Source: Parafilimonas sp.
Lineage (GTDB): Bacteria > Bacteroidota > Bacteroidia > Chitinophagales > Chitinophagaceae
Direction: 5' to 3'
Length of the DNA: 43,747 nt
Assembly (NCBI GenBank): GCA_017856455.1
Contig: JAFMEZ010000014.1
Span: forward strand, 1 to 43,747
The notes beneath the pieces were generated by a model that saw only the letters and a list, made by a program, of their open reading frames with translations, was not told where the DNA came from and made no database searches. Within the stretch, counting starts at the first letter, position 1. Every line of letters begins with the position of its first letter. Shown here piece after piece: positions 26,320 to 32,051 of this stretch. The translations under genes were made by a program, and so were the position numbers.

Positions 26320-27255
26320 TTAAGCTTGCCTGAATAATTTTAAATTTCTCTTTAGTCCATCGAATCCCGTTCGTTTAATTGGTGAGCTACCAAATAGCTC
26401 TTTAAAGCGTTCATCTTCAAGATTCATCCAATCATCTATTTTGAAGTGGAGTATTTCTTGATATGGATGTAATTCCTCGTGTTCGTTAGGAATTGAAAAT
26501 CTATTCCAGGGACAAACATCCTGACAAATATCACAGCCAAAAATCCAGTTCTCGCTTTTACTGCTAAGTTCACTTGGGAGGTCTTTTGCTTTAAGTTCAA
26601 TGGTGAAATATGAAATGCATTTTGTTGCATCAATCGTTTTGTTGATCAGAATGGCTTCAGTTGGACAGGCATCGATACATTTATTGCAGGTGCCACAATG
26701 ATCATTTACAAATGACTGATCAGCTTCTAATGCCAGATCCGTGATGAGGGTTGCTATGAAAAAGAAAGAACCTTTTTGTTTGTTGATCAGGTTTCCATTT
26801 TTACCAATCCATCCCAGTCCACTTTTTTGTGCCCAAGTTCTTTCAAGTACAGGTGCAGAATCAACAAATCCTCTGCCTTCAATATTTCCAAGTTTTTCTT
26901 GAATGGATTTTAGAAAAAGCTTAAGCTGCTTTTTGATGACCAAGTGATAATCCTTACCGTATGCGTACTTTGCAATTTTTGGATTTCCGTCATCCTGAAA
27001 TGCTTTTGGATAATAGTTGTAGAGTAGCGTGATTACTGATTTCGCACCAGGAACTAATTTTGTTGGATCAATTCTTAAATCGAAATGGTTGTTCATGTAT
27101 TGCATTTCTCCATGAAAGCCTTTCTTCAACCATTGCTCAAGTCTTTTTGCATCTTCATTCAATGGCGCTGCAGTGGCAATACCACATTGATCAAATCCAT
27201 GATCTGATGCAAGTTGTTTAATGATACTAGATTTTTCGCTGTTTGTAAATTTCAT
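26320..27255 (-). CDS. queG: Epoxyqueuosine reductase
   Basis: A 311-residue cobalamin- and Fe-S-dependent enzyme that makes the last step of queuosine in tRNA wobble position 34. The N-terminal DUF1730 part includes GLGWIGKNGNLI. The ferredoxin-like part has two cluster motifs, CGTCNKCIDACP and CDICQDVCPWNRF. It lacks the C-terminal HEAT-like extension of longer homologues, as many Bacteroidota versions do. The neighbouring serine hydrolase gene starts upstream on the same strand with a 9-base gap. Confidence 0.95.
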   Translation of the reverse strand: MKFTNSEKSSIIKQLASDHGFDQCGIATAAPLNEDAKRLEQWLKKGFHGEMQYMNNHFDLRIDPTKLVPGAKSVITLLYNYYPKAFQDDGNPKIAKYAYGKDYHLVIKKQLKLFLKSIQEKLGNIEGRGFVDSAPVLERTWAQKSGLGWIGKNGNLINKQKGSFFFIATLITDLALEADQSFVNDHCGTCNKCIDACPTEAILINKTIDATKCISYFTIELKAKDLPSELSSKSENWIFGCDICQDVCPWNRFSIPNEHEELHPYQEILHFKIDDWMNLEDERFKELFGSSPIKRTGFDGLKRNLKLFRQA

Positions 27256-27264
27256 TTGAAATAA

Positions 27265-28305
27265 TCACTCTACTGATTCTTCAATCGATCTTCTGATTTG
27301 ATTAATGAGCTGAAATCTCTGGCTATTTTGTAACTCACTTGAAAGTATTGCAGCGAAATATTTCTTGTTACTGTCAAACCAAGTAATTGCACCGGTGGGA
27401 CCCAATGATGAAAAAACAATACCTTTCCCGTTCTCGTCAGTTGATTCAGCCCAAGATCCCATGGTATATTTAAATCCTTTGGTGTTTTCGGGAGTATATC
27501 TTATCCTAAGATCGGGGTGATGTATGGTTAGCAGAGTGTTTACTGCATGCTCAGAAAGTACTTGTTTACCATTAAAGAGTCCTTTGTTTGCGATCATTTG
27601 CATGAAATTCAAGTAATCGAATGCGGAGCATGTTGCTCCAGAAGTTGGATTAGGTGCATTTCCATCTTCATTGAAAAAAGATGCTGTTCTCATACCCAAT
27701 GGTCTAAAAATTCTTTCAGCAGCTAGTCGATCAAATGACTTTTTACTGATGATTTCCATCACTTTACCTAAAATATTTAACCCAACATTACTATAGGAAA
27801 AAGCATCACCTGGATTATCTACAATCAATTTTTTTGTAGCATAAAATGAAACCTCTTCATCCAGGTTTAAGAATTTATTTTTTTGAGCAACCTTTACAAT
27901 TCCACTTGCATCAGCATCTAGCCCCGTTGTTTGCGTAAGGCAATGAGCAACTGTGATATAACCTTTCATATTCTTTTTAAATTCTGGAAGGTATTTGGCG
28001 ATAGGGTCGTCTAGGCTCAATTTTTTCTGGTCAATGAATGTCATGACCAATGCGGCACTGATCCAGGAGCTTGCATGTCCGATTGCAGTTGGAATTTTTA
28101 ATTTGAGTTCATCTGTTTCAGAAAGGAATATATTTTTTCCTCCTTTTTGTACTACAATGGTGTATTGTTTCCCTAAATTCTTTGCATTGCTTTTTAATAT
28201 TGTCTGAAGATTATTGAAATCTTGAGCATCAGCAGACTGAAGAAATAGCATGAAAATAAGCGCCAGACTGCATTTGCGACATAAATAATTGAAAATCGCT
28301 GACAT
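27265..28305 (-). CDS. Serine-hydrolase/beta-lactamase-family protein lacking the SxxK dyad
   Basis: From ATG 28305 the product is 346 residues with a signal peptide (MSAIFNYLCRKCSLALIFML to about residue 28); an upstream in-frame start at 28356 would bury this signal. The fold matches class C beta-lactamase/esterase-like enzymes: KLSLDDPIAKYLP, CLTQTTGLD and the YSN motif (Tyr171-Asn173). At the nucleophile position, however, it reads HASS (His77 to Ser80) where family members have SxxK, so both the nucleophile and its general base are replaced. The codons (CAT GCA AGC TCC) were checked. It is probably a binding or scaffold protein, or an enzyme with a new mechanism. Divergent from clpB. Confidence 0.86.
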   Translation of the reverse strand: MSAIFNYLCRKCSLALIFMLFLQSADAQDFNNLQTILKSNAKNLGKQYTIVVQKGGKNIFLSETDELKLKIPTAIGHASSWISAALVMTFIDQKKLSLDDPIAKYLPEFKKNMKGYITVAHCLTQTTGLDADASGIVKVAQKNKFLNLDEEVSFYATKKLIVDNPGDAFSYSNVGLNILGKVMEIISKKSFDRLAAERIFRPLGMRTASFFNEDGNAPNPTSGATCSAFDYLNFMQMIANKGLFNGKQVLSEHAVNTLLTIHHPDLRIRYTPENTKGFKYTMGSWAESTDENGKGIVFSSLGPTGAITWFDSNKKYFAAILSSELQNSQRFQLINQIRRSIEESVE

Positions 28306-28362: not shown

Positions 28363-30960
28363 ATGAATTTAAGCAACTTTACCATACAGGCTGCAGAAAT
28401 TGTTCAATCAGCTCAACAGGGTGCTTTTAATGCAGGTAATCCAAATATTGAATCTGAGCATATACTACAGGCGTTGCTTGATCAAAAAAATTCTCCTGTT
28501 GAATATCTCTTGAAAAAGAATAATGTTTCTATTCAGGTGTTGAACAGCAAGCTTAGAGAGTCAATCCAAAAATTGCCCAAGGCCTCAGGGGAAGCTGCAC
28601 AGTCTTTAAGCCGTGATGCGAATACAACATTTTTAAGAGCGGGCTCTTTGTTGAGCAAATTCAATGATGAATTTGTAACTCCCGAACATTTGCTGCTTGC
28701 AATGATTTCTGGGAATGATGCAGTTGCTAGAATGCTGAAAGAGGCTGGACTAACAGAAAATGGATTGATTCTTTCCATCAAAGAATTAAGAAAGGGAGAA
28801 ACAGTTAAAAGCCAGACACAGGAGACGCAATACAATGCATTGAATAAATATGCAAAAAATTTAATCGAAATGGCGCGTCAGGGTAAGTTGGATCCTGTGA
28901 TTGGAAGGGATGAAGAAATTAGAAGAACATTGCACATCCTTACACGTCGTTCAAAAAATAATCCAATTTTAGTTGGTGAGCCTGGAGTGGGTAAGACTGC
29001 AATTGCAGAGGGACTTGCTATGCGAATTGTAAATGGGGATGTGCCGGAAAATCTAAAAAGCAAACAGATCTATGCATTGGATATGGGTTTGTTGATAGCT
29101 GGCGCAAAGTATAAGGGTGAGTTTGAAGAGCGGCTGAAAGGAGTAGTTAAAGAAGTTTCAACCAGCGACGGAGAGATCATCCTATTTATAGATGAGATAC
29201 ATACATTGGTTGGTGCAGGTGGAGGTGAGGGGGCAATGGATGCAGCTAATATCTTAAAACCAGCGCTTGCCAGAGGCGAACTAAGAGCAATTGGTGCAAC
29301 CACATTAAATGAATATCAAAAGTATTTTGAGAAAGATAAAGCGCTTGAAAGAAGATTTCAGAAAGTAATGATTGAAGAGCCTGGAATTGAGGATGCAATT
29401 TCCATTTTACGCGGACTTAAAGATCGTTATGAAACCCATCACCATGTACGCATTAAAGATGAAGCAATTATTGCAGCAGTTGAACTTTCTCAACGATACA
29501 TTACTGATCGATTTTTGCCAGATAAAGCAATCGATCTTATTGATGAAAGCGCTGCAAAGTTGAGGCTGGAGATGAATTCCATGCCAGAGGAGTTGGATAA
29601 GTTGGAGCGTCAGATCAGACAGCTTGAAATTGAAAGGGAAGCGATCAAACGAGAAGATGATGAAGTGAAGCTCAAGGATCTTAATACCGAATTGGCAAAT
29701 CTTGCTGTAGAGAGAGATACACTAAAATCTAAATGGAAAGCAGAAAAAGAGTTGGTTGAAAAAGTACAATCTGCAAAATCTGAAATTGAAAAACTCAAAT
29801 TGCAGGCAGAGAAAGCAGAACGTGAAGGAGATTATGGCACTGTTGCTGAAATCCGTTACGGAAAAGTCAAACAAAAAGAAACTGAAATCGGTGAGCTCTC
29901 TGAGGAACTTGCGAAATCTAGTGAGAAGAGGTTATTAAAAGAGGAGGTTGATGCAGAAGATATTGCTGAAAATATTGCAAAAGCAACTGGTATTCCTGTT
30001 TCAAAGATGATGCAATCTGATCGAGAAAAATTACTTCAACTTGAAGATCACTTGCATGAAAGGGTTGTTGGACAGGAAGAAGCAATTACGGCAGTGGCTG
30101 ATGCAATAAGAAGAAGCAGGGCAGGTTTGCAGGATCCTAAAAAGCCAATAGGTTCATTTATTTTTCTTGGTACAACAGGCGTTGGAAAAACAGAATTAGC
30201 AAAGGCATTGGCTGAATATTTATTTGATGATGAGGGAATGATGACGCGAATTGACATGAGTGAATATCAAGAGAAGCATACCGTTTCACGACTGGTAGGA
30301 GCTCCTCCAGGTTATGTTGGTTATGAAGAGGGCGGACAACTTACAGAGGCAGTTCGAAGAAAACCATATAGTGTGGTGTTGTTGGATGAAATTGAGAAAG
30401 CCCATCCAGATGTATGGAATGTGTTGCTGCAAGTATTGGATGATGGCAGGTTAACCGACAATAAAGGCAGGGTAGTGAACTTCAAGAATACCATCATCAT
30501 CATGACAAGTAATTTAGGAAGTCACCTTATTCAAGATGCATTCGAAAATGTTGGCGAAAAAAATATCGATGAAGTTGCTGAGAAGGCAAAAGTTGAGGTT
30601 ATGAATTTGTTGAAGCAGACTATTCGTCCGGAGTTTTTGAACAGGGTAGATGAAATCATCATGTTCCAGCCTCTGAACAAAAAAGAGCTAAGAAAGATCA
30701 TTGAAATACAGCTCAAATCAATTCAACAATTGGTTAAAGAAAATCAAATTGAATTGTCTTTCACTCCTTATATTCTTGAATATTTATCAGAGCACGGATT
30801 TGATCCACAGTTTGGCGCAAGACCATTAAAGAGACTTATTCAAAAAGAAATAGTCAATCAATTGTCCAAACGAATTTTAGCAGGGGATATTGATAAGTCC
30901 ATACCAGTGATCATTGATGTTTTTGATGGGTTGGTGGTCTTTAGAAACGAAAAGATATAA
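28363..30960 (+). CDS. clpB: ATP-dependent disaggregase ClpB
   Basis: An 865-residue AAA+ chaperone from ATG 28363; the longer reading from a TTG at 28357 adds two residues and is not needed. The N domain is at about 1-145. AAA1 has Walker [14 protein letters not shown] and Walker [11 protein letters not shown]. The coiled-coil middle domain (about 405-525) distinguishes ClpB from ClpA/C. AAA2 has Walker [15 protein letters not shown] and Walker [14 protein letters not shown]. It is a hexamer that threads aggregated proteins together with DnaK. No CIRCE element was noticed in the 57 bases shared with the divergent gene. Confidence 0.98.
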
Positions 30961-31007: not shown

Positions 31008-32051
31008 ATGAATAGCGTAAAAATCCAATTCTTTTCAAAGTCAATTTTATTGCCTTTGATTTCCTTCTCAGTCTTTTCATGCTCGAATGCTCAATCGGAT
31101 CCTCAAAAAATTTCTCTTGCTTCGAATAGTAAAGTTGAAAAAAATATTTCGAGTAAATCGGATCGTGCGCCGTTGGATACAGCTGCATACAGAAAGAAAT
31201 TCAATGCGATGTTGAATGGAGACAGTTCAGATCGTTGGAAATTTAAGGGTGAATTCCCTTTGGCTGGCGCATGGCTCCCTCACCATCGTATTATTGCATA
31301 TTACGGGAATCTATATTCTACCCGTATGGGTATTTTAGGAGAGCTTCCAAAGCCACAGATGTTTGCAAAACTTAAAACTGAATTGGAATCCTGGAGAAAG
31401 GCAGATCCTTCAACACCAGTCAAGCCGGCGCTTCATTATATTGTAACAACTGCACAGGGATCACCTGGTTCAGGAGGAAAATACCGATTACGCATGCCAA
31501 ATAAGGAAATTGATAAAGTGATGGCAATGGCATCTGAGATCGATGCTTTGGTTTTTTTGGATATTCAAGTTGGACTTAGTAATCTCAGAGAAGAAATACC
31601 TGTCATTGAAAAATATCTTCAATTACCTAACGTCCATTTGGGAATTGATCCGGAGTTTTCAATGAAAGGAGGACAAAAACCAGGGAGTGTAATTGGTACA
31701 TTTGATGCAGGGGATATTAATTATACATCACAATATCTGAGAGATCTTGTTCAAAAAAATAATCTACCGCCTAAAATGCTGGTGATTCACAGATTTACAC
31801 AAAATATGGTACGAGACTACAAGTCAATTAAAAAGCATCCTGAAGTACAGATTATAGTTGATATGGATGGCTGGGGCGCTCCTGCAAGAAAAATAAATAC
31901 ATATAAGCAGTTTGTGTATGCTGAGCCCATTCAGTTTACAGGGTTTAAATTATTCTATAAAAACGATTTGAAGGAACCTCCTCATCGCATGTTAACGCCT
32001 GCTGAATTATTGAAATTGAAGCCAGTGCCTATGTATATTCAATATCAATGA
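31008..32051 (+). CDS. Lipoprotein of unknown function with TIM-barrel-like strand pattern
   Basis: I do not recognise a named family. The 347-residue protein starts with a lipoprotein signal (SVFSC, Cys25). A Ser/Lys-rich linker (about 30-75) is followed by regularly spaced hydrophobic strands, each ending in polar or acidic residues: RIIAYYGNL, PALHYIVTTAQ, DALVFLDIQVG, VHLGIDPEFSM, KMLVIHRFTQ, VQIIVDMDGWG and FTGFKLFYKN. This looks like a (beta/alpha)8 barrel. The acids in LDIQVG and IDPEFS are placed as in glycosidase-type barrels, so an envelope polysaccharide substrate is possible but unproven. It is 47 bases after clpB, without a terminator between them. Confidence 0.7.
   Translation: MNSVKIQFFSKSILLPLISFSVFSCSNAQSDPQKISLASNSKVEKNISSKSDRAPLDTAAYRKKFNAMLNGDSSDRWKFKGEFPLAGAWLPHHRIIAYYGNLYSTRMGILGELPKPQMFAKLKTELESWRKADPSTPVKPALHYIVTTAQGSPGSGGKYRLRMPNKEIDKVMAMASEIDALVFLDIQVGLSNLREEIPVIEKYLQLPNVHLGIDPEFSMKGGQKPGSVIGTFDAGDINYTSQYLRDLVQKNNLPPKMLVIHRFTQNMVRDYKSIKKHPEVQIIVDMDGWGAPARKINTYKQFVYAEPIQFTGFKLFYKNDLKEPPHRMLTPAELLKLKPVPMYIQYQ

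Follow-up and report, generated by a model that had tools for sequence, protein, structure and literature searches.

A beta-lactamase-like protein encoded beside clpB in Parafilimonas sp. has lost both the Ser and the Lys of the catalytic SxxK motif, and one or both of these residues are also missing from a large share of its syntenic orthologs, which have nonetheless been kept by purifying selection. These results suggest that the protein is probably a maintained periplasmic pseudoenzyme, derived from an ancestral serine hydrolase, in which the fold has a non-catalytic role. The window (the whole stretch of DNA that was analyzed, 43,747 nucleotides) contains the following features.

27265–28305, minus strand: predicted exported beta-lactamase-like (PF00144) pseudoenzyme, 346 amino acids (open frame; PF00144, 116.7 bits; Foldseek 5tgf_A, 2.7e-13)
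28225–28305, minus strand: putative signal peptide, codons 1–27, followed by Gln28 (by eye; Gln28 in 101/101 orthologs)
28066–28077, minus strand: degenerate SxxK site His77-Ala78-Ser79-Ser80 (codons and alignments)
28078–28080, minus strand: residue 76, Gly here and Ala in 58/59 SxxK-keeping orthologs (ortholog alignment)
27787–27795, minus strand: Tyr171-Ser-Asn173, the YxN motif (sequence and ortholog alignment)
27391–27411, minus strand: putative third-motif strand, residues 299–305, SSLGPTG (identity of the motif deduced from its place in the alignment)
28363–30960, plus strand: clpB, the divergent neighbor (AAA_2, ClpB_D2-small)
26320–27255, minus strand: queG (epoxyqueuosine reductase), the downstream neighbor and selection yardstick (QueG_DUF1730)
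28264–28281, no strand assigned: 18 bp within codons 9–14 with synonymous sites conserved in part of the genus (codon identity; one match in the window)

The open reading frame, read directly, runs from the ATG at 28305 to the stop at 27265 and has no internal stop, bearing out the clean frame of 346 codons reported in the first-pass annotation. Codons 77 to 80 (28077–28066, minus strand) are CAT GCA AGC TCC. When the protein was aligned with PDB 5tgf_A, IGHASSW paired with VASAGKW, placing His77 at the position of the nucleophilic Ser and Ser80 at that of the Lys. Both residues of SxxK are thus substituted, and the HASS reading of this site, originally made from the sequence, was confirmed by the codons and by the alignment. 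The same annotation had described the other signatures of the fold as intact. This was correct for LDDP, CLTQTTGLD, and YSN (171–173); Tyr171, the Tyr of YxN, is retained in the window protein and is Phe in the sister L022. It was not correct for several other sites. The third motif of S12/class C-type enzymes is a KTG/HxG equivalent; residues 299–305, its putative counterpart, are SSLGPTG in the window protein and mostly [SAT][SC]PGLFG or near variants, not KTG, in SxxK-keeping orthologs. In addition, the window protein has Gly, Gln, Thr, Ser, Leu, and Ser at positions 76, 125, 221, 222, 301, and 323, each of which is kept in at least 30 of the 32 intact orthologs of the first set described below. 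The end of the signal peptide before Gln28 was judged by eye from the sequence, and a periplasmic location is predicted for the product.

The protein matched Pfam PF00144 with E = 1.6e-33 (116.7 bits against a curated cut-off of 27). The best match was 5tgf in a PDB sequence search (1.2e-25) and 5tgf_A in a Foldseek search with the predicted model, and VIA-align gave a best Z of 22–23 over 286–300 residues at an rmsd of about 4, corresponding to the beta-lactamase/DD-peptidase fold. The model is weak (mean pLDDT, 58.6; input alignment, 14 sequences), and no additional relatives for the fold prediction turned up among the viral contigs scanned; because of this weakness, some of the changed sites 76, 222, 302, and 323 are placed near the active site by motif position only. 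The label "class C" applied in the first pass proved too specific, since the NCBIfam class C beta-lactamase model NF033085 scored 36 bits against a cut-off of 415. None of the 25 NCBIfam models listed came near its cut-off (the highest score was 45 bits, for a cut-off of 266), and no PADLOC-DB (anti-phage defense) family matched the window protein or the intact ortholog L005 at E 0.01. Active S12/class C-type serine hydrolases use Ser, Lys, and Tyr, according to PMC7804941, and of these residues the window protein has only the Tyr of YxN. It would be classed as a pseudoenzyme under the definition given in PMC10211241, the absence of the conserved catalytic motif of its own family, and it is maintained by selection, as described below.

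We collected relatives from several sources. Thirteen relatives, from Chitinophagaceae or wider groups, came from a scan of named genomes, and 68 of the 149 related genomes searched had a match at 1e-30. In much of Chitinophagaceae, the gene is found as a syntenic ortholog divergent from clpB. The genomes that carry it range from about 1.4 to over 6 Mb, and it is not universal (match at 1e-40 in 236 of 394 family genomes). The first set comprised 70 of 74 places (G146, G046:C51, G069:C12, and G043:C18 were not included). From these, L048 (without the motif region), L083 (a fragment), and L088 (a distant non-syntenic homolog) were excluded, and five non-syntenic paralogs, all with SCSK, served as the outgroup, leaving 62 orthologs, of which 32 were from the window's genus. 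The fragment L083 has ASSK at the site, with Ser lost. An added set consisted of 40 loci, one per genus, from the better-scoring matches listed in the search of the family genomes; the first set already included 10 of these genera. One locus, L175 (G412:C92:4599–8609), was removed for an internal TAA, the sole broken frame among the 101 orthologs plus L175, so that the added set held 39 orthologs and the total was 101. clpB lay divergent beside the ortholog in 61/62 loci of the first set and 36/39 of the added set (L175 not counted), and queG was found near it on the same strand in at least 39/62 loci, with flanks of unequal length. Directly after clpB in the window, positions 31008–32048 (plus strand) encode a 347-aa protein with no Pfam match at 1e-5 and, by eye, a lipoprotein-like or exported start.

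We then compared the SxxK site among these orthologs. The four closest species (71–79% identity) are without both residues and have HASA, HAST, HASA, and YASA (the last in L023). The motif therefore varies even within the window's clade, and the conservation of HASS that the first-pass annotation had proposed to look for was not observed. Among the other nine named relatives (54–56% identity), eight keep SSSK or SASK, and L010 has NSSK. Ser and/or Lys was lost in 30/62 orthologs of the first set (Ser in 28, Lys in 25, both in 23), a share that may be too high because these orthologs were ranked by their similarity to a protein that itself lacks both residues, and in 12/39 of the added set. Combined, 42/101 orthologs lack Ser and/or Lys (Ser in 39, Lys in 34, both in 31) and are hereafter called inactive-looking, and 59/101 are intact. 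By hand count, inactive-looking orthologs make up 18/32 in the window's genus and 24/69 outside it. Orthologs that keep SxxK had been named beforehand as possible counter-evidence to a pseudoenzyme; they do exist, but they are more distant from the window protein (57% identity or less) and reveal recurrent loss rather than error.

The number of losses was estimated on trees. A tree of the 62 orthologs made without the four motif columns required 11 changes, and 300 bootstrap trees required 10–13, or 11–15 events if only losses were counted; six contrasts rest on well-supported branches alone. The quick tree of 101 orthologs gave 17 changes and 18 loss-only events. These numbers are approximate, because support is weak for many inner branches (29 of 64 starred), and the long branches of inactive-looking orthologs would tend to cluster them and reduce the estimate. 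Since the paralogs and the outgroup keep SxxK, the site was most likely intact in the ancestor. As controls, we read the SxxK site by alignment in 54 further PF00144 proteins encoded in these genomes or in related ones, namely high-scoring PF00144 matches and five paralogs of the window genome itself; all 54 keep Ser, Lys, and Tyr, a comparison that leans toward typical family members because of the way the matches were drawn. The excluded homolog L088 (G134:C62:11831–18739), from another family of the order, has SASE at the site, so that loss of the Lys is not limited to the clpB-linked gene. The double loss in the four sister species also bears on the quality of the window's assembly, which is fragmented (102 contigs) and 89% complete. 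These four assemblies are separate named records, and the probability that the altered motif is an assembly or sequencing error is close to negligible.

We next measured selection on the gene with codon models, using its two neighbors as references. For the window's five inactive-looking species, omega of the whole gene was 0.052 (queG, 0.044; clpB, 0.012), and for the four-species HAST/QASS clade it was 0.026 (queG, 0.040). The values for seven intact species and for three further species were both 0.079 (queG, 0.077 and 0.056, respectively). With the first 27 codons removed, omega was 0.033 in the window's five species, 0.019 in the HAST/QASS four, and 0.066 in the seven intact species, and fixing omega at 1 (kappa 2) worsened the fit by 477, 402, and 302 log units, respectively. 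Pairwise dN/dS could not be computed for 4/10 pairs of the window's clade and 2/6 pairs of the HAST/QASS clade; the remaining values were 0.065–0.126 and 0.043–0.163, and the pairs of the window's clade were mostly saturated or nearly so at synonymous sites. The least saturated inactive-looking pairs, L020/L021 and L043/L045, had dN/dS of 0.065 at dS 0.98 and 0.043 at dS 0.56; some saturated pairs reached 0.12–0.16, and pairs of intact orthologs ranged from 0.05 to 0.10. Synonymous saturation makes the sizes of these omega values rough, and their direction is sound.

These results bear directly on decay. Both catalytic residues are gone, protein evolution is faster in inactive-looking lineages (median root-to-tip distance, 1.28 versus 0.98 in intact ones), and L175 carries its internal TAA, all of which would fit a recent or slow pseudogene. 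However, omega is 0.02–0.05 in two inactive-looking clades, with neutrality rejected by 402–477 log units, and none of the 42 inactive-looking orthologs has a stop inside the match. We therefore regard decay as very improbable, above all for the window's clade. The proposal of a selected pseudoenzyme made in the first-pass annotation was supported by the low omega in the window's clade, the open frames, the double loss in four sisters, and the repeated loss elsewhere. The faster protein evolution could mean that constraint has eased on some of the protein.

Selection might also act on DNA rather than on the product. Across 11 chosen species of the window's genus, identity at codons 6–13 was 0.93, compared with a mean of 0.48 (sd, 0.12) over the gene. 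The conserved codons 9–14, TGT CGC AAA TGC AGT CTG, are found about 80–100 bp before the start of clpB, and this 18-bp element may be cis-regulatory DNA of the divergent clpB; a sigma-70 scan around the gene start gave no match. The codons deviate in other members of the genus (L030, L034, L039, L046, and L052). Cys9, within the signal peptide (28279–28281), is present in 89/101 orthologs, and its conservation is perhaps a by-product of this element. The synonymous-site conservation at codons 9–14 in part of the genus could mean that the gene is kept only for clpB regulatory DNA in its 5' end, an extremely improbable account given that purifying selection is equally strong without the first 27 codons.

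Furthermore, we examined which other sites changed together with SxxK. Ala76, just before the nucleophile, was lost in 37/42 inactive-looking versus 1/59 intact orthologs, Gly222 in 33/42 versus 3/59, Lys323 in 24/42 versus 1/59, and Gly302, which the window protein keeps, in 18/42 versus 0/59. Tyr171 was lost in 6/42 versus 1/59, and Trp81, Asn164, and Asp230 were not associated with the loss. Sign tests on independent pairs gave about five of six pairs in favor and none against for sites 76 and 222 (median p 0.06; six pairs can hardly reach 0.05), and weaker support for sites 125 and 221 (about three pairs in favor). Of the sites that intact orthologs of the first set conserve, 26 fell by at least 30 points in inactive-looking ones: 76, 77, 80, 125, 221, 222, 301–308, and about a dozen outside the motifs (e.g., 33, 49, 71, 249, 275, and 338), where falls would also be expected if the inactive-looking orthologs were simply more diverged. 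In the same set, 49 positions were at least 85% conserved in both groups. One intact ortholog, L198, keeps SASK and has Phe171, Gly76, and Asn222; it may be an intermediate on the way to loss.

One alternative is a ligand-sensing pseudoenzyme, in which the old cleft would still bind a muropeptide, a D-amino-acid ester, or a beta-lactam without turnover and would signal or buffer it. In the window's five species, residues 119–131 and 161–180 are 77% and 75% invariant, the fold neighbors include esterases and peptidases of such substrates, and Tyr171 is retained in 36/42 inactive-looking orthologs. However, the loss is accompanied by changes at sites that intact relatives conserve (76, 222, 302, 306, and 323). 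The putative third-motif stretch belongs to the more variable parts of the protein in the window's clade (33% invariant), though it is 50% invariant in the HAST/QASS clade, and no receptor or regulator adjoins the gene in the window, where only queG and clpB do so. Ligand sensing seems rather unlikely. A protein-protein or scaffold role is tentatively favored over it, because the catalytic region itself has changed.

Catalysis by other residues appears less probable still. The first-pass annotation had raised an altered mechanism through Ser79 or Ser80, and His77 or Tyr171 could be added as participants. His occurs at position 77 in four separate tree groups (the window clade, L042/L043/L045, L034, and L166), and Ser79 is shared by the window protein and its four sister species. 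Ser79, however, is the ordinary residue before the Lys in 31/32 intact orthologs, Ser80 is Ala, Thr, Ala, and Ala in the sisters, His77 is Tyr in L023, and Tyr171 is Phe in L022. The recurrence of His need not reflect selection either: Ser77 is encoded by AGT or AGC in 30/32 intact orthologs, inactive-looking ones show AAY (Asn, as in relatives L030 and L047) and CAY (His), and the path AGY-AAY-CAY is open by single steps, so that His may have arisen by drift. Residues that are invariant in the window's clade but uncommon in intact orthologs include Lys110, Ser83, Ser170, and Ser172. None of them forms an evident new Ser-Lys pair, and Lys110, the only such Lys, lies thirty residues away in the sequence. 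With Ser80 replaced in the sisters and no evident new pair, the Ser79/Ser80 mechanism was not upheld, and any altered mechanism is decidedly improbable.

The losses in the sequences, their recurrence, the syntenic position, the selection, and the changes at other conserved sites were observed directly, and the protein is presumably inactive. At a fixed locus, the gene has persisted many times after its catalytic residues had gone, and the simplest account is that the fold has a second role for which the Ser-Lys pair is not needed. On balance, we favor a bifunctional periplasmic protein of the beta-lactamase fold beside clpB, whose catalytic half was shed independently at least 10 times and whose non-catalytic half is strongly selected. 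The ancestor would have been a PF00144 serine hydrolase next to clpB that combined Ser-Lys-Tyr chemistry with a second role, such as a grip on a partner protein or ligand through surfaces independent of the Ser-Lys pair. The chemistry would then have become dispensable in many lineages, with loss of the catalytic residues, and purifying selection for the second role would have maintained the gene; the window's clade would be one such lineage. Against this account, the faster inactive-looking lineages also fit partial relaxation, the changes are not confined to the catalytic motifs, the gene is not universal, and the frequent retention of Tyr171 could mean that the pocket is still partly functional.

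To our knowledge, bacterial pseudoenzymes of the beta-lactamase fold have been little studied. The recurrent loss suggests that this fold can have a second job needing no catalysis. With 59 active-looking and 42 inactive-looking orthologs at one locus, which function is kept by selection can be asked directly, and a comparison of the two kinds could show what accompanies the loss of catalysis. If our account is true, the family would represent a natural replicate experiment in the making of a pseudoenzyme. It is also a warning for annotation, as the window protein scores far above the Pfam beta-lactamase cut-off despite its missing nucleophile.

In a literature search, which most subscription journals lay outside, we recognized no paper on this clpB-linked family or on recurrent SxxK loss. 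Among known systems, the window protein resembles the PF00144 serine hydrolases (MEROPS S12, class C-type beta-lactamases, and family VIII esterases) in family score, fold, the Tyr of YxN, and the LDDP and TTG segments, and differs from active members in lacking the Ser and Lys of SxxK and in its altered putative third motif and other conserved sites. The putative beta-lactamase 5tgf of Bacteroides dorei is its best sequence and Foldseek match, yet has SAGK at the site. EstG (7uda; VIA-align Z, 22.3; 21% identity) and the family VIII carboxylesterase 4ivi (Z, 22.9; 20% identity) share the fold, and both are titled as enzymes. The closest published parallel that we found appears to be the Dis3L2/Ssd1 pseudonucleases of fungi. 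These are eukaryotic RNA-binding proteins with genetic evidence for a second function, whereas the window family is known from sequences alone. According to PMC8097288, their active-site signature disappeared on at least four occasions, and a second function of ancestral origin was proposed for them; the two families would thus be alike in the repeated loss of a signature and in the proposed retention of a second function.
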